Assembly: GCF_009832745.1 (NCBI RefSeq)
Contig: NZ_VRMJ01000005.1
Location: 1-64,000, forward strand
Source of the DNA: Polaribacter septentrionalilitoris
GTDB taxonomy: Bacteria > Bacteroidota > Bacteroidia > Flavobacteriales > Flavobacteriaceae
Length of the DNA: 64,000 bases
Direction of reading: 5' to 3'
In this document: piece after piece, positions 6,370-28,533 of the stretch
Position numbering within the stretch: position 1 is the stretch's first letter
Layout of the letters: the number at the start of each line of letters is the position of its first letter
The notes under the pieces: model-generated
The model's database searches: none
What the model saw: only the letters and a program-made list of their open reading frames with translations
What the model was told of the DNA's origin: nothing
Made by a program: the position numbers and the translations under genes

Positions 6370-7896
6370 CTAATTTGTTAATTCTATATTAACTGGTAAC
6401 ACTTGTTTAAGATCATATCCATTAGCAGAAGCTTTAATACCGTAAATATTAATGATATCGCCTCTTTTTGCTCTAGATAGCTTTTGTTTGGCTGCAGCAG
6501 TTAATTTTGTTCCATTAACTAATATAGTTAATTGACCTGGTACTTTTATTTTAAAGCTTTTTACTTTTATTTTTAAATCAAATTCAAAGTCAGGTAATCC
6601 AGCTGCAATTGGTGCATTAGCTAAACCAGATTTTGGCATTCTAACAGTACCATATTGACCACGAACTGACCCCATAGCTGCAGGAATGTCCTTAATTCTA
6701 AAGGTAGCCTTAGAGTTTACAGTTTTACCACTACTTAATTTTGCACTTACATTAATTGTGGCAAGATTTCCAGCTCCAGGTCTTATACTATATTTTCCTC
6801 TACTCCCTGTTAATTTTCCACCAGAAGCAGAAACATTTAAATTATTATCTCCAACACCTGGCAATGAGACTGATATTGGGTTGTCTAAACCTCTGTAAAC
6901 CACATTCATTTTATCAGCAGAAACTACAGCATTGCTTGGTTCTGGAATAACAGAGTATGAACTTTCGAAAGGAACTTCTACAGGCTCACCTCCTTGTGTA
7001 AATGTTATTTTACCTTTAATATCATGATTTCCTACATTACCAGCTGGCATGTCTACAATAACTTGACCTGCTTCAATGTTATCATAGTCTCTACCATTTA
7101 AAATTACTTTATCAGGAACCATGGTAGCATCATAACGTCCAAGAACAATCTTACCTGTAACTTTTTCTCCTGCAAAATATGCGTTCTTATCTAAAGCAAC
7201 AATACCTTTATAATTAGTTAAGGAAACTTCGCTTTCTAGTTGACCTCCTAATAAAGAATTCAAAATATCAGATTCTGTATTCTTTATATCTGCTTGCATT
7301 TGAGTTAAATTTGTTAAAGAAGCAACTAGAGGAAAACCTTTGTAACGGTAATCCAACCATTTAATTGTTTTACCATCTCTATTAGTCTGCTCTTCAGTAC
7401 TAAATCTATCTTTAATTATTGGTGCAAATTTAGAGTCGGTCCCCAAAACATCTATTAATTCTGTTCTGTAGCTATTGATTTCATTCAAAAATTCTTGTCC
7501 TTCTGGAGTATATTTGTCTCCTTTAAAGAAATACTCATCTAAAAAGGAGGTCTTATCCATTGTTTCGTAATCTTTCTTATCTTCAATATCTGCAGTCATT
7601 TTATTTTTTAGATCTGCTAAATAAGAATAAAATTCTGACGAAGATTTTTTTATTTTATCTGCTTGAGCTTTTAACGGACCAAACTTTGCAGTTTGCTCTG
7701 ATGCTTTTGTTGCTAAATTTGCATAAGCTTCATTATTTTTCTCAGTTGTTGAAATATTGTTTACAGTTAACTTTTCATTCATAAAACCAAAAGCAGATAA
7801 AACTTCTTTACTCATATTTAAAGCTAACATTGCAATAAATACAAGGTACATTAAGTTTATCATTTTCTGTCTAGCAGACATTTTTCCTGATGCCAT
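6370..7896 (-). CDS. gldM: GldM, type IX secretion/gliding motor subunit
   Basis: A 508-residue inner-membrane protein with one N-terminal membrane helix (about residues 12-30) and a long periplasmic part. GldM dimers thread through the GldL pentamer and transmit proton-driven rotation to the outer ring through four periplasmic domains. The start MASGKMSARQKMINLMYLVF is the conserved GldM N-terminus. The periplasmic part shows the expected alpha-helical D1 region followed by beta-rich domains and the ending NGYDLKQVLPVNIELTN. It lies 46 nt after gldL and 17 nt before gldN. Confidence 0.95.
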   Translation of the reverse strand: MASGKMSARQKMINLMYLVFIAMLALNMSKEVLSAFGFMNEKLTVNNISTTEKNNEAYANLATKASEQTAKFGPLKAQADKIKKSSSEFYSYLADLKNKMTADIEDKKDYETMDKTSFLDEYFFKGDKYTPEGQEFLNEINSYRTELIDVLGTDSKFAPIIKDRFSTEEQTNRDGKTIKWLDYRYKGFPLVASLTNLTQMQADIKNTESDILNSLLGGQLESEVSLTNYKGIVALDKNAYFAGEKVTGKIVLGRYDATMVPDKVILNGRDYDNIEAGQVIVDMPAGNVGNHDIKGKITFTQGGEPVEVPFESSYSVIPEPSNAVVSADKMNVVYRGLDNPISVSLPGVGDNNLNVSASGGKLTGSRGKYSIRPGAGNLATINVSAKLSSGKTVNSKATFRIKDIPAAMGSVRGQYGTVRMPKSGLANAPIAAGLPDFEFDLKIKVKSFKIKVPGQLTILVNGTKLTAAAKQKLSRAKRGDIINIYGIKASANGYDLKQVLPVNIELTN

Positions 7897-18941: not shown

Positions 18942-20582
<1,641 letters not shown>

Positions 20583-20583
20583 G

Positions 20584-20632
20584 CAGCGAATCGCTGTGGA
20601 TAATTATTTCACTGTTGTGTAAAAATAATTAT
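20584..20632 (+). repeat. Two small hairpins in the groEL 3' UTR
   Basis: CAGCGA (20584-20589) with TCGCTG (20591-20596) lies right after the stop codon, and ATAATTATTT (20600-20609) pairs with AAATAATTAT (20623-20632). Neither has a T-run, so they are more likely mRNA-stabilising or incidental structures than terminators. Confidence 0.45.
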
Positions 20633-20646
20633 GTATTCATTTACTT

Positions 20647-20673
20647 GTTATTTCGACCTTGTGGAGAAATCTC
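20647..20673. repeat. TTTCGA-type palindromic repeat remnant
   Basis: GTTATTTCGACCTTGTGGAG followed by AAATCTC contains the inverted pair ATTTC/GAAAT. It resembles the dispersed intergenic ATTTCGA...GAGAAATCTC repeats that I remember from many flavobacterial genomes. Related pieces lie at 24027-24059 and 61559-61585. Confidence 0.5.
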
Positions 20674-20681
20674 AAAACATA

Positions 20682-20717
20682 AAAAATCCGTTAGAAAATT
20701 TCTAACGGATTTTTTTT
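20682..20717. terminator. Bidirectional terminator between groEL and the DUF3179 gene
   Basis: A perfect stem of about 16 bp (core ATCCGTTAGAAA/TTTCTAACGGAT) with A and T runs on both sides. It serves groEL on the plus strand and the DUF3179 gene on the minus strand. One arm (20692-20716) recurs at 22832-22856. Confidence 0.92.
20692..20716 (+). repeat. Direct repeat copy 1 (terminator arm)
   Basis: A 25-nt stretch containing TTTCTAACGGATTTTTTT, 24/25 identical to 22832-22856 in the same orientation. The two copies bracket the DUF3179 and CC-motif beta-barrel genes. Confidence 0.75.
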
Positions 20718-20727
20718 ACTATTTATT

Positions 20728-21801
20728 TTAATCTTGATATATTTCTGTAGTATAAAAGGCTGGTATAGAAAACCAATATCCCATAAAAGAATTTGAAGGT
20801 TTTAAAAACTGACCTTTTCTAGGTCCTGAAATAGCCTCTCCAAAAATATTCCATTGATTACCTTCATTATCATTGAGTAAAATTTCTGTTCCATCATGTG
20901 CATAACTAAACTCTAACAAAGCAGAATTACCTTCCAATAAAAATGAGACTATGAAATCTGAATTCCCAACAACTAAGTAGTTTTCCCCTTCAAAAGAATC
21001 TTTAATAATATTTTTTGATTCGAAACTTATAAATCTATAGGATTTTGCATTTCCATTATCAGAAATAATAGCGTGAACTCTTTCTTTTGATGGCAATCTA
21101 TTATCATTTCTTGAAACTGGAAATAAAAGTATATCATTATTTGTACTATAATCTCCGTAAGGAGATGTACCATAAGATCTAGAAAAGCCTGTGTTTTGTG
21201 TTACAACTTTAGAATTTGGATATAGTTTTTTCCAAGTTCCCCAATTCGTCTCAAAAAGCATTATCAAATCTGCTTTTTGATCTATTAAGCTTCCATTTAC
21301 AGATTTATTTAGAATTTGAGACCAATTACTTTTAGTAGCTCTATCAAAAGGAATTAAATTAGAGTTGTACAACAATCCAGAAACACCAAATGTAGTTTCA
21401 ACCCCATTAACTATTCTACTCCAGCCAATGCCAGTTCCTGTTAGAGGACAATAAGTAATTGCTACAGAAACATCTCCAACATTATCATTAATAATCTCGT
21501 GCCAATCTAAAATTGTATGTGGATAAGCAACAACATTAGTTCCGTTTTTAAAACCAATAACTAAATCTGAATCTTTTAAAAAATTAGATGGTGTTTTAGA
21601 AATTTCTATTAATTCAGGATTTACCAATGCAGGAATACCATCTATTCCAGGACCTCCATCTAATACTTCTGCCAAAGGAATACTCCATTCTTCTCTGTTT
21701 TCTTGAATAAATTCTAAATCAGGATCTGGATTAAATCCATCTTTATCTGAACTACATCCATACAATGCTATAAAAATTACAATTATTAATATTCTATTCA
21801 T
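20728..21801 (-). CDS. DUF3179 domain lipoprotein
   Basis: A 357-residue lipoprotein (LYGC, Cys16). The body is a DUF3179 domain: VVAYPHTILDWHEIIND, YCPLTGTGIGW, the SGLLYNSNLIPFDRATKSNW segment and SYGTSPYGDY. The Cys in CPLTGT and the following residues are diagnostic. Function is unknown; the family is secreted in many bacteria and archaea. It starts 3 nt after the stop of the upstream beta-barrel gene, so the two form a tight pair. The terminator it shares with groEL follows 11 nt after its stop. Confidence 0.88.
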   Translation of the reverse strand: MNRILIIVIFIALYGCSSDKDGFNPDPDLEFIQENREEWSIPLAEVLDGGPGIDGIPALVNPELIEISKTPSNFLKDSDLVIGFKNGTNVVAYPHTILDWHEIINDNVGDVSVAITYCPLTGTGIGWSRIVNGVETTFGVSGLLYNSNLIPFDRATKSNWSQILNKSVNGSLIDQKADLIMLFETNWGTWKKLYPNSKVVTQNTGFSRSYGTSPYGDYSTNNDILLFPVSRNDNRLPSKERVHAIISDNGNAKSYRFISFESKNIIKDSFEGENYLVVGNSDFIVSFLLEGNSALLEFSYAHDGTEILLNDNEGNQWNIFGEAISGPRKGQFLKPSNSFMGYWFSIPAFYTTEIYQD

Positions 21802-21804
21802 ATT

Positions 21805-22779
21805 CTAAAATTTTATAAAACGAGTACTCGTTTTCTTTTTGTTTAATTTATATGTGAAACCTACTGTTAATCTTAACGTTGGAGATAATTGTGTACCATC
21901 TACATAACTGTAGATGGGTAATTCTATTTTTGAATTAAGTACTATGTTAGATGTTATTTCAGAGGATAATTCAGGTCTTACAAAAACCCACTCTCCTCCT
22001 GTATTAGGTAAGTAATTATTATTTATTTTATCTCTTAAGGCCCTTCTATACTTAAAAGTTAGTTTAGGACTAAATAAGGTTTTATACAGTAAAAATTGAT
22101 CTGAATACCCTAAATTAACTTGTAATTCATTTCCAAATTCATAAGTTGATGTATTGTTTAAATACGAGTCATTAACCCCTGTTAGTCTATAACTAAGGTT
22201 TCCAAAAATAAGAGCTGAGGGTTTTGATTTTAATTTCTTAGACAAAGATAACCAGCCTATACCATCAAAAGCTCCACTACCTGGTTGTAAATCTGCAGTT
22301 AATTGAATCCCTTGCTTAGAAATTAAATCTGATTTACCTAAAGGTACCTTTGTACCTATTCCTAAATTAAGTAGTGTATTTTCACCTAAAATATTTTGAA
22401 TGGCATATTTAAACAAAAGAACAGCATCTCCTATACCAGACGTTTCTGTAAAGTTTTCATTTCCAAATTGTCTTATTGTTCTTGTTTGATTTACCCAAGT
22501 AAGAAGTAGTTCTGCAGAAAACTTATCTGTAAAAGAGTATGAAGTATTTATTAAAATGGAATTTGTAATTCTCAAGCGACTATTATCTTCTAGTCTTTCT
22601 GTTCCAGATTTTAATGTATTTAAATTATTGTAATCGTAATTTAATCCAAAAATCCATGAATTTTTACCTTCATTAGGTAGTCCTAAATTATTAGATAATG
22701 GCACACCACCTGAGCAACAAGTTTGTGAATTTGTTTTAAAACATCCTAAAAGAATAATCAAAAGAAAACCATATTTCAT
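21805..22779 (-). CDS. Outer-membrane beta-barrel with mature N-terminal CC motif
   Basis: A 324-residue protein with a signal peptide and a likely cleavage site at TNSQ|TCCSGG, leaving Cys21-Cys22 near the mature N-terminus. The rest alternates aromatic beta-strands (NSWIFGLNYDYNNL, SYSFTDKFSAELLLTW, LTVGFTYKLN), typical of a beta-barrel of the transporter/MetA-pathway type. I chose ATG 22779 because the longer frame starts with TTG at 22803 and puts extra residues before the signal peptide. It is paired with the DUF3179 gene. The substrate is unknown; the CC motif suggests a link to metal or thiol chemistry. Confidence 0.72.
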   Translation of the reverse strand: MKYGFLLIILLGCFKTNSQTCCSGGVPLSNNLGLPNEGKNSWIFGLNYDYNNLNTLKSGTERLEDNSRLRITNSILINTSYSFTDKFSAELLLTWVNQTRTIRQFGNENFTETSGIGDAVLLFKYAIQNILGENTLLNLGIGTKVPLGKSDLISKQGIQLTADLQPGSGAFDGIGWLSLSKKLKSKPSALIFGNLSYRLTGVNDSYLNNTSTYEFGNELQVNLGYSDQFLLYKTLFSPKLTFKYRRALRDKINNNYLPNTGGEWVFVRPELSSEITSNIVLNSKIELPIYSYVDGTQLSPTLRLTVGFTYKLNKKKTSTRFIKF

Positions 22780-22831
22780 GTTTTTTTGTTCGAGTAAAAA
22801 CAAATTCCTTACAAATTACAAAAAAAACAAA

Positions 22832-22856
22832 TAGAAATTTTCTAACGGATTTTTTT
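22832..22856 (+). repeat. Direct repeat copy 2 (terminator arm)
   Basis: 24/25 identical to 20692-20716 in the same orientation (one A/T change in the TAGAAA-TTTCTA stretch). It lies just after the HMA-MauE gene on the minus strand. The other arm of the original hairpin is absent, so it would terminate poorly. Confidence 0.75.
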
Positions 22857-22869
22857 ATTACATCATGTA

Positions 22870-23592
22870 TTAGTATAGTGTTACAAGCATATAAATTGCC
22901 ATAAGAATCATAATGCTATTTTCTATAAACGTAGCTTTAGTCATAGGTAAATTTAAAACAGAACCTAAACAAGCACATTTTATGGTTTTTTTGTCTAACA
23001 AGGATTTTATAACTCCAACTGTTGTAATTCCTAAAATAACTAAAGTAGCAAATAAGGCAAATCTAATTTTGTATTCAAACAAAAATAAAAGACCTAAAGA
23101 AAGCTCTATGAAAGGATATACAAAAGCATATTTAGGAATTACTTTTGCTAATGGATCATACATTTGAAAACTCATTGCAAAACCTTTTACATCTAAAATT
23201 TTAAAGAAGCTAAAAATTATATAAAATAGCCCCATAAAATCTAACATAAAAGCATTGGTTTCCCAAGGATTTATATTCATTAATACTGATGAGACCAAAA
23301 TATAACCAAAGATTAAAAACAATGGATACAATTGCTCACTTTTAGATTTTTTTTCTTCAAAAGCTACATCAGGTATTTTCTTTTTTTCTTTCTTTTTTGC
23401 TATTGTAAATTTTTCTGGCAACGCATTCTGTAAAATTTCAATAGAAACATGAGAACTCATATTAATAGTAGCTTCTTCTTGCTCTAAATTCACAGTTACT
23501 TTCTCTATATTTTCTAGTTCTGAAAGTGATTTATGGACAGAAGACCTGCAACCATCACATGTCATTCCAGAAATGTTATAAGTATGTTTCAT
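22870..23592 (-). CDS. HMA domain fused to a MauE/DoxX-like membrane domain
   Basis: A 240-residue protein. Residues 1-65 form a heavy-metal-associated domain with MTCDGC (Cys12 and Cys15). A Lys-rich linker follows, then four membrane helices (about 91-109, 115-133, 158-196 and 222-239) of the MauE/DoxX redox type, with a second cysteine pair KCACLG (Cys206 and Cys208) before the last helix. The fusion suggests passing a thiophilic metal or electrons across the membrane. It starts 7 nt after the secreted HMA protein gene, so the two are coexpressed. Confidence 0.82.
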   Translation of the reverse strand: MKHTYNISGMTCDGCRSSVHKSLSELENIEKVTVNLEQEEATINMSSHVSIEILQNALPEKFTIAKKKEKKKIPDVAFEEKKSKSEQLYPLFLIFGYILVSSVLMNINPWETNAFMLDFMGLFYIIFSFFKILDVKGFAMSFQMYDPLAKVIPKYAFVYPFIELSLGLLFLFEYKIRFALFATLVILGITTVGVIKSLLDKKTIKCACLGSVLNLPMTKATFIENSIMILMAIYMLVTLY

Positions 23593-23599
23593 TTGTATG

Positions 23600-24007
23600 T
23601 TAGTTATTTTTCTTCACCTTCTTCATTTCACCTTGATGATCTAAAATAATTTTATCATCTCTATATTTACAACACGGATGTACAGAGTTGTATGCTTCTA
23701 AAGAAGCTGTAATTTTTTTATCTTTCAAAATAACATCATGTCCAACATTTGCAATATTTTGTTGTACAATTCCAACTTCAACTTTACGTTCATCCATAAT
23801 TAGATTTAATTGATGTGTTTTTGGACTCCAAAGTGCAAATTTTACACCTTTAGTTTTTAAAGCAGCAGTTTCAATTCGTTTTTTACACATTCCGCAAATA
23901 CCATCAACTTCAAAAGCAACTTTTGCATTTTTCTTCTTTTTAACTTCTTGAGATTGCATAGAAAACCCAATGAATACTAAACTTAATATGAATATAATTT
24001 TTTTCAT
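23600..24007 (-). CDS. Secreted heavy-metal-associated (HMA) protein
   Basis: A 135-residue protein with a signal peptide (cleavage near MQSQ|EVKK). The HMA fold carries CGMC (Cys38 and Cys41) in the metal loop VDGICGMCKKRIETAA, and an extra CC pair (Cys112-Cys113, HPCCKY) sits near the C-terminus, which is Lys-rich. MerP/CopZ-like periplasmic metal carriers have the first motif; the CC pair is an addition. It is followed after 7 nt by the HMA-MauE fusion. Confidence 0.82.
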   Translation of the reverse strand: MKKIIFILSLVFIGFSMQSQEVKKKKNAKVAFEVDGICGMCKKRIETAALKTKGVKFALWSPKTHQLNLIMDERKVEVGIVQQNIANVGHDVILKDKKITASLEAYNSVHPCCKYRDDKIILDHQGEMKKVKKNN

Positions 24008-24026
24008 TTTTACTTATTTTTTATAA

Positions 24027-24059
24027 CTGTCACTAAGAATTATTCACTCGAAGTGACAG
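24027..24059. repeat. Inverted repeat between TonB receptor and HMA genes
   Basis: CTGTCACT (24027-24034) and AGTGACAG (24052-24059) form an 8-bp stem with a 17-nt loop containing a CACTCGAAGTG-type core. It looks like a TTCGA-type REP element rather than a plain terminator, and may set relative expression of the flanking genes. Confidence 0.55.
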
Positions 24060-24100
24060 AATTAATTAATTTTTATTTTATAAAAACCCCACTAATTGGA

Positions 24101-26344
24101 TTAATTTATCTTAAATCGTAAACCTGCATAAATTGCGCGTCCAAAAATAGGTGCGTACACAATTGTAGTATCAAAATTTGAACCAAAAGGATCGTTACTT
24201 GCTAAAATAGGATTTTTCTGTTGAACATTAGTAATGTTCTCTCCTCCTACATACATTTCAAACTTTTCAGAAAACACTCTAGTAACTTGAGCGTTTAACA
24301 ATTGATAAGGATTTGAATATTCTGGCAATTGAAATTGAGCTGGATTTGAACTTGTACTTGGTAATCGTTGTTTACCTATACTATTAAACGTTGCATCAAA
24401 CCTCCATTGAGAGCCTTTCTCTGTCAGTTCTGTATCGTAAGAAAGATTGGCAAAAAAGCGATTTTGAGGCTGAATAGGTTTCTCAAGATTTCCACTTTTA
24501 TAGTCTGTAGAGATATCAAAATATTTATAAGCTGTTCTTAGATTAAAACGTTTTGCAAAGTTATAATTTACTTCAACTTGAAAACTATTGGCAATACTTT
24601 TTCCATCTAAGTTATAAAAAGAGACTTCTTGTGGATTTTCCCAATCTACAACAACTTGATTTTGAAAATCGGTTTGATAAAAATCAAAAGTGATGTCTCC
24701 TTTCTTATCAAACACATTGAATTTCTGCATAAAAGAAACGCCATAATTCCAAGCAATTTCAGGATTCAAACCATAGATATTCCCTCCTTCATTATCAATA
24801 TTAATTTGTCTAGAACTTGCAAACAATTGCTGGTTTTCTGCAAAAATATTGGCACTTCGTTTTCCTCTTCCAATAGAAGCTCTCAATACACTGTTTTCCC
24901 AGGGAACATATCTTAAATGTAAACGTGGAGTAATAAAAGTTCCTAATAAATTATGCGTATCAATTCTTATTCCTGCTGTGAAACTAAAATTATCTAAATT
25001 ATCATAGGCATATTCAAAAAAAGCTCCTAAAGAATTCTCTTTTCTATTAAAGTCTGATGTATTTACAAACTCATCATAATTGTCATAAGTAAAACTAACT
25101 CCTGTTTTAAATTTATTTCTAGTATCACCAATAATAGAATTAAAAATCAAATTAGAATACACACTTTGGTGTTGGATATCATAGACATTCAACCCAAAAT
25201 AAGAGTCTTGCTGATGATTGCTATACGCAAACTGAAATCCAAAACTTTGGTAAGGTAATTCTGGAAACACATACCCTAATTTTGCAGAAGCATCAATTCT
25301 TTTAGTATCAATCTCACTTCCCCAAGCATTTGTTGTTTCCTTATCTACCTTAGGATTAAAATTAAGTTGACCTGTTTGTTTTTCATCATTTAAAAAACGA
25401 AAATTTAGAAAACTCACCCAACCTTTTTCTGCGTCTGTGAATTGCCAACGGTTCATCACATTAATTTGATTCGCCAATGGCATATCTAAAAAACCATCAG
25501 TATTGTTATCAAATTTTTGTCCTCTATAATTTCCATGAATATACAAACCAGTTTGCCATTTCTCAGAAACTTTTTTGTTGATATGTGTATTCAATTCTAA
25601 CCTTCCGTTAATAGAAGAATAGGCATTTAGAAAAAATTTATTATCAGAAAAAGGTTTGACCAATTCTGCATTAATTTGTCCAGAAATACTTTCAAATCCA
25701 TTAACAACAGAACCTGCACCTTTAGAAATTTGAATACTTTCCACCCAAGTTCCAGGCGTAAATGTGAGTCCAAAAACTTGAGATGCTCCTCTTACAGATG
25801 GAATATTTTCTTGTGTGATTAACAAATAAGGACTCGTTAAACCCAACATTTGAATTTGTTTTGTTCCTGTTAAGGCATCAGAAAAACTAACATCTATAGA
25901 CGGATTTGTTTCAAAACTCTCTGCTAAATTACAACAAGCCGCTTTTAGCAATTCTTCTGAGTTCACAGTAAACATATTTGCTGTAACTAAAGTAGACTTA
26001 AATGTTGCTTTCTTTTGAGTTCTTACAGTTACTTCTCCTAACTCACCTTCTTGAGTTAAAAAATGATGAATTGGTTTTAAACTTGTAATTGTAACAGTAT
26101 CCGTTTTATAACCTAAATAACTAACTATTAATTTTTTATATGATTTTTTATAAGGAATCGTAAACCATCCTTTTTTGTTTGTAATTGCACTAACATTAGT
26201 ATTTAACCAATGTACACTTGCACCTTCTACTCCTAAATTATCTTTAGGGTTATTCTTATCCATAATCATCCCTTTTAAATTGGTTTGAGAAAAGATTACA
26301 AAAGGTATAAATAGCAAAAAGCTAGTTATGAAATGTTTTTTCAT
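24101..26344 (-). CDS. TonB-dependent receptor of the cysteine-pair cluster
   Basis: A 747-residue outer-membrane receptor. Order: signal peptide (to about residue 20), carboxypeptidase-like regulatory domain (about 21-95), a TonB-box-like linker, plug domain (about 120-225, with IQMLGL and GAGSVVNGFESISGQINAEL), then a 22-strand-type barrel ending in AIYAGLRFKIN. The plug begins with LKAACCNLAESFETNPSIDV, giving a CC pair at 137-138 that ordinary receptors lack. Together with the neighbouring HMA proteins this points to uptake of copper or another thiophilic metal complex; the substrate is an inference. Confidence 0.88.
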   Translation of the reverse strand: MKKHFITSFLLFIPFVIFSQTNLKGMIMDKNNPKDNLGVEGASVHWLNTNVSAITNKKGWFTIPYKKSYKKLIVSYLGYKTDTVTITSLKPIHHFLTQEGELGEVTVRTQKKATFKSTLVTANMFTVNSEELLKAACCNLAESFETNPSIDVSFSDALTGTKQIQMLGLTSPYLLITQENIPSVRGASQVFGLTFTPGTWVESIQISKGAGSVVNGFESISGQINAELVKPFSDNKFFLNAYSSINGRLELNTHINKKVSEKWQTGLYIHGNYRGQKFDNNTDGFLDMPLANQINVMNRWQFTDAEKGWVSFLNFRFLNDEKQTGQLNFNPKVDKETTNAWGSEIDTKRIDASAKLGYVFPELPYQSFGFQFAYSNHQQDSYFGLNVYDIQHQSVYSNLIFNSIIGDTRNKFKTGVSFTYDNYDEFVNTSDFNRKENSLGAFFEYAYDNLDNFSFTAGIRIDTHNLLGTFITPRLHLRYVPWENSVLRASIGRGKRSANIFAENQQLFASSRQINIDNEGGNIYGLNPEIAWNYGVSFMQKFNVFDKKGDITFDFYQTDFQNQVVVDWENPQEVSFYNLDGKSIANSFQVEVNYNFAKRFNLRTAYKYFDISTDYKSGNLEKPIQPQNRFFANLSYDTELTEKGSQWRFDATFNSIGKQRLPSTSSNPAQFQLPEYSNPYQLLNAQVTRVFSEKFEMYVGGENITNVQQKNPILASNDPFGSNFDTTIVYAPIFGRAIYAGLRFKIN

Positions 26345-26414
26345 TGTTTTTGATTTTAATAATTAAACTTCAGTTTCTCATTATTTTGAGACTGCTTGAG
26401 TGTTAATTATTAAA

Positions 26415-26807
26415 TCAAATTAAAAAAGATTGGTATAAAACCTGAAAATCTTTGAGATTATCTGGTGGTGGAAAGTCTTTATAAATGCTTTTATCAGATT
26501 TTTTTTCCACAAATAAATCGTGATAAGAAATGGTAAAGGCGACTAAAAATTGTTGTTTTTGAAAATTGAAATCGTCAGGAGAGGTTTGTTGCAATTCATC
26601 TTGCCCATCTATTTGATGAACTTCATCTTTACAACATTTCTTTATGACTTTCTCCATATTCATTCCACAATCATCTGCATCACCTGTAAAAGAAACATCC
26701 ATTAAAAACTCGCCACAATAATGTTTTTCTACGGTAAAAGAAAACGTAGAAAACAACACTAAAAGTGCTAGTAAAATTGATACTATTTTAGAAAATGTTT
26801 GTTTCAC
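26415..26807 (-). CDS. HYC_CC_PP family protein
   Basis: A 130-residue protein with one N-terminal membrane or signal segment (about 8-24). It carries the motif set that names the family: HYC (29-31), an additional Cys47, CC (58-59) and FPPP near residues 109-112. The spacing of Cys and His suggests metal binding, but no activity is known to me. The only usable start is GTG at 26807. A promoter box TAAATTTGC lies immediately upstream on the minus strand (26812-26820), leaving little or no leader. It is the first gene of the metal cluster, 70 nt before the receptor. Confidence 0.75.
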   Translation of the reverse strand: MKQTFSKIVSILLALLVLFSTFSFTVEKHYCGEFLMDVSFTGDADDCGMNMEKVIKKCCKDEVHQIDGQDELQQTSPDDFNFQKQQFLVAFTISYHDLFVEKKSDKSIYKDFPPPDNLKDFQVLYQSFLI

Positions 26808-26811
26808 AGTT

Positions 26812-26820
26812 GCAAATTTA
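26812..26820 (-). promoter_or_regulatory. -7 promoter box of the cysteine-pair cluster
   Basis: TAAATTTGC on the minus strand, 4 nt upstream of the GTG start at 26807. No TTG lies at the usual distance upstream. If used, the transcript would be nearly leaderless. Confidence 0.45.
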
Positions 26821-26848
26821 CGATTTGTAATTTTAAAATGATGTTAAA

Positions 26849-27280
26849 TTATCTATTGCTTAGTTTTTGATAGTAAAAAGCTGGAAGTAGTAACAATAAA
26901 AACAATGGATGAATGATAAATCTTCTAATGTAAAAAGGCAATAAATATCCATCTTCAAAATCATTTTTTAGGAGTAACACAAAAGTTACAATTAAAATCA
27001 TGAAAGCTAGCATTAAGAAAAATCCTGAAAACTTTAAGTAATCTTTTCTTTCAAACAAAACCCATATAATTCCTAGGGTTACTAGTGAGTTTAAGGTATA
27101 TCTAAATAACATATTTACAACCAATCTCCAAGTATCTAACACAGGCAAATACATGTAGAGATAGTCATTTTTAAAATATGCAATTAATGGATCGTAAAAA
27201 AGAGTATTCCCATAGCCTCTTATTGCAAATAAGGTCATAAATAAAATAACCAAAAGTATTATTTTAATGTAGGTATTCAT
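26849..27280 (-). CDS. Exosortase F system-associated protein
   Basis: A 143-residue integral membrane protein with about four helices (about 4-22, 44-65, 72-108 and 120-137). Its start overlaps the stop of the exosortase gene (ATGA), and this position directly after XrtF is what defines the exosortase-F-associated family in flavobacteria. The family has no known enzymatic motif; it is presumed to work with XrtF in processing or anchoring a surface protein. Identification rests mainly on context and topology. Confidence 0.8.
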   Translation of the reverse strand: MNTYIKIILLVILFMTLFAIRGYGNTLFYDPLIAYFKNDYLYMYLPVLDTWRLVVNMLFRYTLNSLVTLGIIWVLFERKDYLKFSGFFLMLAFMILIVTFVLLLKNDFEDGYLLPFYIRRFIIHPLFLLLLLPAFYYQKLSNR

Positions 27281-27813
27281 TTTTTATATTTCGAAAATTT
27301 GTTAACCCAAATTACCCAAAGTAAAAAAACTGTTCCGTAGATTATTCCTGGAAAAATAATATCGTGTAAAACTCCTATTTGGTTAGGATATTTATAAATC
27401 ATTACTGTTAAGAGAGAAATTCGTAATACGTTAATCACATAAATAAAAACACTACCAAATAAGAGGTATAATACTGTGGCTTTTATAGATCCAGAAAAAG
27501 CAACAACAAAAGCCATGAACAAAATGATGACACTTATAGAATTACAACCTTCAATAACTCTTGCTGTATATTCCCCTTCTATAATCAATTTCATAGAAAC
27601 CTCTTTATCATGCTGAACAGTTTCTACATTATATCCAAAAAACGTTAACACATCAACAGTTTGATCTGCAACCTTTTTAGTTATAGAAGCTGATTTAAAG
27701 TTGTCTTCTTTTTGCTGAGAGTTTTCTAAATAGTAAGAATAAATTGCAAACAAAATAAAATAAGTAACAAAAAACTTAATTAAAAAAAAGATGATGTTTT
27801 TATGTTTTTTCAC
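27277..27813 (-). CDS. xrtF: Exosortase family protein XrtF
   Basis: A 178-residue membrane protein with the exosortase catalytic triad: Cys90 in VIEGCNSISV, Arg131 in NVLRISLLTV and His150 in GVLHDIIFPG. Helices are at about 11-28, 92-110, 113-141 and 152-172. Exosortases are transpeptidases that recognise a short C-terminal sorting signal on exported proteins. I saw no protein in this window with an obvious PEP-CTERM-like tail, so the target must be elsewhere. The gene is divergent from the GAF-domain gene at 27864. Confidence 0.88.
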   Translation of the reverse strand: MKKHKNIIFFLIKFFVTYFILFAIYSYYLENSQQKEDNFKSASITKKVADQTVDVLTFFGYNVETVQHDKEVSMKLIIEGEYTARVIEGCNSISVIILFMAFVVAFSGSIKATVLYLLFGSVFIYVINVLRISLLTVMIYKYPNQIGVLHDIIFPGIIYGTVFLLWVIWVNKFSKYKK

Positions 27814-27827
27814 AATAAATTTTGATT

Positions 27828-27836
27828 TAATTTTGC
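27828..27836 (+). promoter_or_regulatory. -7 promoter box of the GAF-domain gene
   Basis: TAATTTTGC, 27 nt before the ATG at 27864, matches the Bacteroidota -7 element. No clear TTG lies 19-23 nt upstream. Confidence 0.45.
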
Positions 27837-27863
27837 AACTTATTACAGTAACGAATATACAAA

Positions 27864-28316
27864 ATGAATATAGATATTTTACAAGGCCAAGTTGATAATA
27901 TTATTGCCACAGAAATAACAACATCAGAAAAATTACAAAACATTTGCGATTTATTAGAAAGTAAAATTTCTTATTATGATTGGGTAGGTTTCTATTTTAA
28001 AAACGGTGATAAAAATGAACTAAAATTGGCACAATATACTGGTGAAGAAACTGAGCATACAATTATTCCATTTGGAAAAGGTATTTGCGGTCAAGTTGCT
28101 GTGAGTAATGAGAATTTTATAGTGCAAGATGTTAGCGAACAAGACAACTACATTTCTTGTGGTTGGAAAGTAAAATCAGAAATTGTAATCCCTATTTTTG
28201 TAAATGGAGAAAACATAGGTCAAATTGATATCGATTCTCACACAGCGAATCCTTTTACTAAAAAAGACGAAGAACTTTTAGAATATATTTGTAAAAAAGT
28301 TTCATTGATTCTATAA
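27864..28316 (+). CDS. GAF-type free methionine-R-sulfoxide reductase-like protein
   Basis: A 150-residue stand-alone GAF domain of the fRMsr (YebR) type, which reduces free methionine-R-sulfoxide. Family landmarks: YYDWVGFYF, PFGKGICGQVA (Cys75), NYISCGWKVKSEIVIP (Cys99) and GQIDIDSH. Cys75 and Cys99 have the 24-residue spacing of the catalytic pair in the E. coli enzyme. The additional upstream Cys of the E. coli protein is absent here. It is divergent from xrtF and has its own promoter box. Confidence 0.78.
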   Translation: MNIDILQGQVDNIIATEITTSEKLQNICDLLESKISYYDWVGFYFKNGDKNELKLAQYTGEETEHTIIPFGKGICGQVAVSNENFIVQDVSEQDNYISCGWKVKSEIVIPIFVNGENIGQIDIDSHTANPFTKKDEELLEYICKKVSLIL

Positions 28317-28320
28317 TTAA

Positions 28321-28350
28321 TTGTTTTTTACGAGATTTTTTATATATTTG
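28321..28350 (+). promoter_or_regulatory. Promoter of the tandem micro-ORFs
   Basis: TTG (28321-28323), 19 nt, then TATATTTG (28343-28350): a well-spaced Bacteroidota promoter pointing at the two small ORFs. It begins 4 nt after the stop of the GAF-domain gene. Confidence 0.6.
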
Positions 28351-28404
28351 TTACCATATTATACGATTATTAATTTAATTCTAACATCATTAATCCCTTA
28401 AATA

Positions 28405-28533
28405 ATGAGAAAAGAACATACTACCTCATCAGTTGCATCAGGCAACTTATCACAACAATTTAATTCTGAAAAACAGTCTATTTTAAATCAATTTATGAAT
28501 TGGTTTAGAAATTTTGTTGAAAATGCAGAATAA
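28405..28533 (+). CDS. Micro-ORF 1 (42 residues)
   Basis: An ATG at 28405 opens a 42-residue frame (starts MRKEHTTSSV, ends FRNFVENAE). It is rich in Ser, Asn and Gln with an amphipathic end NQFMNWFRNF. No signal peptide. It lies about 50 nt downstream of a good promoter. The following small ORF has the same length and an almost identical start (ATGAGAAAA then a CAA or GAA). I do not recognise a family; the pairing and promoter are the reasons to believe it is expressed. Confidence 0.45.
   Translation: MRKEHTTSSVASGNLSQQFNSEKQSILNQFMNWFRNFVENAE

Follow-up and report, generated by a model that had tools for sequence, protein, structure and literature searches.

The stretch analysed here, referred to as the window, comprises 64,000 nucleotides (nt) of Polaribacter septentrionalilitoris (contig NZ_VRMJ01000005.1, positions 1 to 64,000 of the forward strand). 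Its minus strand carries an operon encoding, in this order, a protein of the HYC_CC_PP family (hereafter HYC), a TonB-dependent receptor with a vicinal cysteine pair in its plug, a secreted protein with a heavy-metal-associated (HMA) domain, and a fusion of an HMA domain with a MauE membrane domain (HMA-MauE). As shown by comparison of predicted genes across genomes, the conserved unit is HYC-receptor-HMA, to which HMA-MauE, or elsewhere a copper ATPase with a CPC motif, or neither is added. The best explanation overall, to which we assign a probability just above even, is a copper-responsive trafficking operon in which HYC would act mainly as a regulator. The operon consists of the following elements:

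26415..26807, minus strand: HYC_CC_PP gene with a GTG start, encoding H29xC31, C47, CC58-59, PP114-115 and 15 residues after PP; proposed nascent-chain copper sensor and leader open reading frame (ORF)
26813..26820, minus strand: putative promoter -7 box of the Bacteroidota type, TAAATTTG (TAnnTTTG), just 5' of the HYC gene
26351..26417, minus strand: predicted stop-anchored mRNA hairpin between the HYC and receptor genes, in which UGAUUU, including the HYC stop, is paired to AAAUCA, ending 6 nt before the receptor ATG
24101..26344, minus strand: TonB-dependent receptor with CC in the plug (Pfam TonB_dep_Rec_b-barrel PF00593, 81.5 bits; Plug PF07715, 28.9 bits)
25931..25936, minus strand: codons of receptor Cys137-Cys138, counted from the ORF, within the motif ACCNLAESF
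23600..24007, minus strand: secreted HMA protein with a signal-like N-terminus (PF00403, 25.5 bits; cut-off 24.8); proposed periplasmic Cu(I) chaperone
22870..23592, minus strand: HMA-MauE fusion (PF07291, 61.7 bits, cut-off 27; PF00403, 46 bits, cut-off 24.8); proposed inner-membrane Cu(I) transporter

The original prediction had described a cluster of six minus-strand genes, the four above followed by genes for an outer-membrane-type beta-barrel and a DUF3179 lipoprotein, in which nearly every product carries a CC or CxxC pair. The six ORFs and their cysteine motifs, re-read directly from the sequences, were as described, and five of the six proteins have CC or CxxC compared with 4 of the remaining 49 window ORFs that are 100 or more residues long (Fisher one-sided p = 2e-4); for CC alone the counts are 4/6 and 0/49. 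The exception is the DUF3179 protein, in which Cys118 stands singly and which thus has neither motif. Matches in Pfam or NCBIfam assigned DUF3179, MauE, HMA, TonB receptor and HYC_CC_PP, whereas the barrel protein had no match in either database. As a single unit the six-gene cluster was replaced by a four-gene operon and an inserted two-gene pair.

Conserved core and variable members of the operon

Three samples of loci were compared. The HYC-fetched sample consisted of 80 loci and 20 further loci picked mostly for the barrel or DUF3179 gene and in a few cases for HYC, and 90 HYC genes were read in it. The HMA-MauE-fetched sample held the best 80 of 581 from named genomes, 79 of them with a readable gene (L189 gave none). 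The receptor-fetched sample held 40 loci from the 94 of 149 Flavobacteriaceae genomes with a receptor match, picked among matches outside the earlier samples.

All 40 receptor-fetched loci encode the plug CC, 39 have the secreted HMA gene (the sole locus lacking it stops at a contig edge), 34 have HYC, 11 HMA-MauE, and 6 a P1B ATPase. HYC, receptor and secreted HMA protein are regarded as the conserved core because of these counts. The expectation that the six genes would be neighbours in other genomes was thus borne out for HYC-receptor-HMA and in part for HMA-MauE, and failed for the barrel-DUF3179 pair (0/40). Of the 90 HYC genes, 29 head receptor operons, 53 head operons of the resistance-nodulation-division (RND) type, and 8 neither; the 79 HMA-MauE loci divide into 52 of receptor type, 18 of RND type, and 9 others. 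HYC_CC_PP matches were found in 135 of the 149 sampled Flavobacteriaceae genomes and in 94/149 of the window's class, HMA-MauE is present somewhere in 59 of the 149 family genomes, and the receptor has a single match in each of the 94 genomes that have one.

The commonest gene order is HYC-HMA-MauE-receptor-HMA, and the order of the window, with HMA-MauE last, recurs in L143, L213, L215, L313, and L318. In many genomes, as in the window, the operon lies between XrtF/exosortase-F genes and a putative groEL gene (called by size and sequence). The genes for the XrtF exosortase and its associated membrane protein (TIGR04128, TIGR04127) occupy positions 26849-27813 of the window directly upstream of HYC and are syntenic in many relatives; HYC seems to have its own promoter despite them. 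Longer versions of the operon (L115, L106, L191, L315) have extra genes between HYC and the receptor or ATPase gene, encoding proteins of about 255 residues, a second HMA protein, and proteins of about 276 residues. Small genomes (1.3-1.8 Mb, some incomplete; L300, L304, L307, L317, L323) retain receptor-HMA, with HYC in four of these five loci, which suggests that the receptor-HMA pair is not readily lost.

The predicted conservation of the cysteine pairs was confirmed among the aligned relatives of all five proteins that carry them. The plug CC of the receptor is present in 30/30 relatives, and within the window's genome, where 31 of 36 plug domains were checked, only the operon receptor has it (0/30 others). 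In the secreted HMA protein, both CGMC (38-41) and C112C113 correspond to pairs kept in 29/29 relatives. The plug cysteines recall OprC, a TonB-dependent system of outer-membrane copper uptake with a cysteine in the plug (PMC8610252). The CxxxM-HxM site of OprC, however, is absent from the window receptor, which has the vicinal CC as its sole cysteines (C137, C138) and A141 and E142 at the positions four residues further on; its site would therefore differ from that of OprC. For Bizionia argentinensis, a survey on copper lists a receptor that does have the OprC motif (PMC11213822), unlike the window receptor.

Copper context and possible exchange with ATPases

Copper is strongly implied as the metal of the operon by the predicted gene neighbourhoods, and their comparison supports the copper-type, thiophilic-metal operon originally proposed. 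HYC heads RND clusters at 53 of the 90 HYC loci, and a representative RND protein exceeds the TIGR00914 cut-off (CusA/CzcA); some HYC-headed clusters contain genes for OEP, CusB-like, multicopper oxidase, P1B ATPase, AraC-type regulator, CopM-like or DUF3347 proteins. Among the 82 operons of either type, HMA-MauE occurs in 21 and a P1B ATPase in 24 (19 with CPC), and in none do they occur together. The 29 receptor-type operons account for 15 HMA-MauE and 2 ATPase genes, and the 53 RND-type operons for 6 and 22, respectively (17 ATPases with CPC and HMA, 5 without CPC). In the receptor-fetched loci the two likewise never occur together. At L093, L124, L284, L288, L292, L311, and L315, the receptor gene is immediately preceded by a CPC ATPase gene, in the position that HMA-MauE has elsewhere, and the L093 ATPase passes TIGR01511. 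For an exchange in this slot, the position before the receptor counts more than the modest co-occurrence statistics.

That another soft metal (Hg, Ag, Cd or Zn) is the substrate appears improbable. The HMA fold would suit MerP as well, a Zn/Cd-type ATPase lies beside HYC in L066, and the five ATPases of RND-type operons that lack CPC are compatible with other metals; against this, the ATPases directly before the receptor do carry CPC, and genes related to the window's HYC have multicopper oxidase and CusA-type neighbours.

The HYC protein and the predicted hairpin at its stop codon

The HYC protein of the window has 130 residues, a hydrophobic N-terminus as judged by eye, and a match to NCBIfam NF047658 with 114.2 bits (E 5.8e-33; curated cut-off 28 bits). 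In an alignment of 91 sequences including that of the window, H29, C31, C58, C59, and the second proline are invariant (91/91), and C47 is present in 89. PP is found in 84 sequences, lies 15 or 16 residues from the C-terminus in 78 of these, and is separated from CC by 54-57 residues in 74. The last residue is isoleucine in 82/91. The gene is preceded by TAnnTTTG, which we take to be the Bacteroidota-type -7 consensus; it occurs within the 160-nt upstream region of 72/90 HYC loci and of 98/577 other genes, HYC regions being positioned from the HYC motif and control regions from the start of the ORF. Another 17-23 nt upstream, a TTG box was not clearly enriched (7/90 and 15/577).

The hairpin of the window has a predicted folding z-score of -4.9, and none of 200 shuffled sequences was equally stable. 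Across 90 post-HYC intergenic regions (median gap 102 nt), the median z-score was -3.5, with 66 below -2. A matched comparison was restricted to gaps of 50-180 nt and set 88 post-HYC gaps against 220 other same-strand gaps, a random choice from 332. The median z-scores were -3.93 and -0.78, respectively, with values below -2 in 69/88 and 71/220. A stem that starts close to the stop codon and ends close to the following ATG was predicted in 72/88 post-HYC gaps compared with 61/220 controls (p 2e-18). Of these 72 anchored stems, which have a median length of 13 base pairs and pair types that change between loci, 55 begin at the first base of the stop codon, and the median distance from the end of the 3' arm to the ATG is 6 nt. 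UGA serves as stop codon in 75/88 HYC genes and 23/220 controls.

Compensatory change was assessed in an alignment of 24 RND-type sequences (A3), in which pairing is kept in 84.5% of cells, both partners vary in 7 of 17 pairs, and covariation is 0.151 compared with 0.094 after shuffling (reached in 0/500 cases) and a maximum of 0.092 for slid positions. The receptor-type leaders (alignment A4) are too divergent for pair counts; in the first set 22/26 of them are anchored. In the named genomes, some of which are shared with the first set, the anchored stem was predicted for 45/48 receptor-type and 12/17 RND-type leaders. No Rfam match was obtained in positions 20500-28500 of the window. A usual role of the hairpin as intrinsic terminator was rejected, as only 10/72 anchored stems have at least five T in the next 8 nt.

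On this evidence a role as regulatory leader peptide is more likely for HYC_CC_PP than one as carrier, and its gene probably works as a copper-sensing switch during its own translation. The alternative that HYC is a working exported copper-binding protein, a carrier or stress chaperone, and that the hairpin merely sets relative protein amounts, has in its favour that conservation extends over about 130 residues rather than over the motifs alone. We nonetheless consider it unlikely in view of the near-fixed spacing between PP and the C-terminus, the common isoleucine end, the stop codon within the stem, the promoter box, and the usual place of HYC as first gene.

The HMA-MauE fusion

HMA-MauE contains C12xxC15 in its HMA domain and C206xC208 in its membrane part, and CxxC and CxC are kept in 25/25 relatives. 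Six methionines, M116, M120, M217, M228, M231, and M235, are likewise invariant (25/25), whereas methionine occupies these positions in 0, 0, 0, 0, 1, and 0 of 30 ordinary MauE domains, the one case being M231; M144 was excluded because its alignment varies between runs. Ordinary MauE/DoxX-like proteins (PF07291, BT_3928 family) share with HMA-MauE the membrane domain, K131, E163, C206, C208, and G210, but differ in lacking the N-terminal HMA domain and the invariant methionines.

An AlphaFold2 model built from 23 sequences (mean predicted local distance difference test score, pLDDT, 85) consists of the HMA domain and five long predicted membrane helices at 89-105, 112-133, 153-171, 176-199, and 217-239. 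The results of a fold search with this model were mostly filled by matches to the HMA domain, mainly copper chaperone domains but also MerP, and the membrane part resembles NACHO/TMEM35A (Z 10.8, root-mean-square deviation 2.9, 112 residues), which for helical bundles may just reflect a common arrangement. No signal peptide is apparent in the protein, and its CxC loop is more positive than any other (3.2 K+R to 0.7 D+E); the HMA domain and CxC are therefore both probably cytosolic. With this orientation, a row of thioethers would connect the ends of helices 2 and 5 on the periplasmic side with CxC and the HMA CxxC. A Cu(I) carrier is suggested by the six methionines that distinguish the HMA-bearing form. 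With CopA-type P1B ATPases HMA-MauE shares an N-terminal HMA domain and the place before the receptor; it differs in having no ATPase domain and in its length of about 240 compared with about 830 residues.

HMA-MauE may instead be a redox protein that handles disulfides of copper-site cysteines in a DsbB/DoxX-like manner, a reading that we regard as possible though not as the probable one. The CxC is present in 30/30 ordinary MauE domains, which would agree with it, as would the similarity to NACHO/TMEM35A, with the above reservation about helical bundles. The form-specific methionines, the CPC ATPases found in the same place, and the probably cytosolic CxC loop speak against it and for a transporter. 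A further copper/thiol link is hinted at by locus L051 outside the family, where the gene after HMA (6576-7271) encodes an HMA-thioredoxin fusion with WCGPC.

The barrel-DUF3179 pair

The remaining two genes of the cluster described originally lie downstream of HMA-MauE, between two terminator-like sequences:

22832..22856, minus strand: remnant (left half, 25 nt) of the broken operon terminator, identical to the start of the intact terminator except at one base
21805..22779, minus strand: protein read from its sequence as a beta-barrel of outer-membrane type, with TCC near the N-terminus and the ATG at 22779; optional passenger
20728..21801, minus strand: DUF3179 lipoprotein with CPLTG (PF11376, 264 bits); optional passenger
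20681..20715, minus strand: intact intrinsic-terminator-like hairpin after the DUF3179 gene, the sole match in the genome to its 29-base pattern (one free base)

The barrel protein has TCC at its likely mature N-terminus, with CC in 9/9 relatives, and Cys118 and Cys16 of the DUF3179 protein are each present in 10/10 relatives. Among the 149 family genomes, 11 have the barrel (one of these by a weak match) and 29 have DUF3179. In the window, the left half of the terminator follows HMA-MauE and is succeeded by the pair and then the intact terminator, whereas in a Polaribacter sejongensis metagenome-assembled genome (L143), HYC, receptor, HMA and HMA-MauE genes are followed directly by a terminator of the same kind and then the putative groEL. 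The pair is read as a later insertion of 2.1 kb at the operon terminator because a broken half copy and an intact copy flank it and the terminator of L143 is intact.

That all six genes form one metal hand-off chain, as originally suggested, is accordingly considered improbable. The pair does lie 3' of the operon in L123, L124, and L220 as well as in the window, and the CC of the barrel is conserved. It also occurs, however, elsewhere in the genome in six cases (G167, G273, G272, G218, G157, G199), where its proteins keep their cysteines, and, in L125, at the corresponding site of a locus that lacks the operon. The barrel was rejected as a fixed pathway part, being rare in genomes, inserted at the terminator, and missing from the receptor-fetched loci. 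A loose functional link of the pair with the operon, beyond chance, is possible given the adjacency in four genomes.

Assignment of DUF3179 to a known enzyme was likewise rejected, since its model (mean pLDDT 83) had no PDB match at E <0.001. Its best PDB match was a Rieske oxygenase and several others were Rieske proteins, at non-significant E of about 0.07 and up. The Rieske likeness of the model is a lead only, by which CPLTG could represent an altered Rieske loop. DUF3179 is listed among selenoprotein families with UxxC/T (PMC9312934, PMC13188914), and such forms would fit a redox cysteine in DUF3179.

Proposed mechanism and comparison with known copper sensors

In the copper-responsive trafficking operon proposed here, copper or a copper chelate would enter the periplasm via the TonB receptor, passing the CC of the plug, and would then be taken by the exported HMA protein with its CxxC and CC. 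HMA-MauE would carry Cu(I) over the inner membrane by way of M116/M120, M235/M231/M228, M217, CxC (C206/C208), and the HMA CxxC, in one direction or the other. The Cys/His motif of HYC would sense copper during translation and export; since it precedes PP by about 55 residues, it would stand outside the ribosome tunnel. Together with PP, the conserved C-terminal tail would slow or stop ribosomes close to the stop codon. If held at the stop, a ribosome would cover nearly the whole 5' arm of the hairpin and thereby leave the start region of the following gene accessible; if arrested at PP, it would fall short of the hairpin, which lies 45 nt further on. Arrest or slow release at the stop is therefore favoured, given this distance and the near-fixed length of the tail. 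TnaC-like peptides provide a precedent for arrest or slow release at a stop codon. Copper may open or close the HYC switch, a device common to efflux and receptor genes, and the sign could be either. Because the same HYC layout precedes both kinds of gene, either the receptor operon would be copper-induced or the sign would differ between HYC types.

Two copper-sensing nascent proteins with a cysteine motif and a C-terminal PP are described upstream of copper genes, CutF, which activates its target via a hairpin, and CruR, which shuts its target off via Rho (PMC9973294, PMC9426467). CutF of Rhodobacter capsulatus, encoded upstream of cutO, is reported to be a small exported protein with a cysteine motif, PP near the C-terminus, and a start-masking hairpin (PMC9973294). 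HYC, with its hydrophobic N-terminus, small size, cysteine motif, PP, and predicted hairpin, has the same layout. CutF differs in having CxxxC in place of HYC, C and CC, in that the HYC hairpin begins at the stop codon, and in the downstream genes. With PP mostly 15-16 residues from the end, HYC proteins narrowly fail the filter given for CutF-like proteins, PP within the last 15 residues (PMC9973294). The Bacteroidota members are counted in aggregate in that paper, whose main text does not contain 'HYC'; its lists of CutF-like proteins may, or may not, include HYC proteins. CruR, a DUF2946 protein encoded upstream of bfrG/crtA in Bordetella pertussis, is described as the product of the first gene of a copper TonB-receptor operon, as HYC is here, with a cysteine motif fixed 45 residues before the PP arrest motif, similar to the fixed Cys-PP layout of HYC (PMC9426467). 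It differs in its DUF2946 domain, which HYC does not match, in its RAPP three residues from the end, and in its Rho dependence, long intergenic region, and dispensable signal peptide. Arrest peptides have been reported in Bacteroidota, but upstream of secretion genes (PMC10987492).

The same genes can also be read as a detoxification operon, induced by high copper through HYC, with the receptor importing or recycling a chelator and HMA-MauE exporting Cu(I) from the cytosol, like CopA, to the periplasmic HMA protein. This is possible as well, although we would not expect it to hold. The HYC and hairpin device also heads Cus-type efflux operons, and CPC ATPases are able to occupy the place of HMA-MauE; TonB receptors, on the other hand, import. 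The closest studied hairpin system, CutF, is reported to be copper-activated (PMC9973294), which would agree with detoxification, whereas the B. pertussis copper receptor operon of bfrG with its CruR leader is reported to be copper-repressed (PMC9426467).

Several observations weigh against the copper-responsive trafficking operon with HYC as regulator. A sign of control shared between HYC types would make the receptor operon copper-induced, a poor fit to simple uptake during starvation. PP is missing from 7/91 HYC proteins, and six HYC proteins had no Pfam match to the DUF2946 domain of CruR up to E 10 with the HMMER filters on. The 61/220 control intergenic regions mentioned above hold an anchored stem as well; RNAalifold on alignment A3 (in which row L100 has no 3' half) gave five inner pairs and missed the outer stem; and only 16 of the 26 receptor-type leaders of the first set had z-scores below -2. 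The receptor-fetched set was weaker, with an anchored stem in 20/29 leaders, a paired stop nucleotide in 14/29, a z-score below -2 in 17/29, and PP absent in 4/29. The probability that HMA-MauE and ATPase genes fail to co-occur by chance was 0.22 for receptor-type operons, 0.03 for RND-type operons (0.08 for CPC ATPases only), and 0.12 in the 40-locus set, and the pooled value of 1.8e-4 mixes two operon types. In the named genomes, 7 of the 79 HMA-MauE loci have a P1B ATPase in the same run, upstream of HYC in L196, L207, and L216, downstream of the same HYC as HMA-MauE in L217, and in a run lacking HYC in L165, L169, and L192. Both HMA-MauE and a P1B ATPase are missing from 12/29 receptor-type HYC operons, and an HMA-MauE-like gene precedes HYC on the same strand in L040, L041, L045, and L304. 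In addition, HMA domains bind Hg, Zn, and Cd too.

A more far-reaching joint claim can be formulated, namely that HMA-MauE is a new ATPase-free Cu(I) transporter, which stands in for CopA through a relay of Met and Cys residues linking the periplasmic face with a cytosolic HMA domain, and that HYC_CC_PP is the main copper sensor of the Flavobacteriaceae and their relatives, which as a nascent exported peptide would arrest the ribosome at the HYC stop codon and thereby open the stop-built hairpin before efflux and receptor operons. That both halves are true together is rather unlikely.

Implications

The term 'HYC_CC_PP' was absent from the open-access PMC library searched, and of the four papers there containing both 'MauE' and 'heavy-metal-associated domain' none appears from its title to deal with the HMA-MauE protein. 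Copper acquisition and sensing in Bacteroidota are little described in that literature, although the CutF-like kind of sensor is already known. If HYC is a true translational copper sensor with a stop-codon hairpin, a single device would govern copper efflux and copper receptors throughout the family, and a small copper carrier replacing a P-type ATPase would, if true, constitute a new transport solution.

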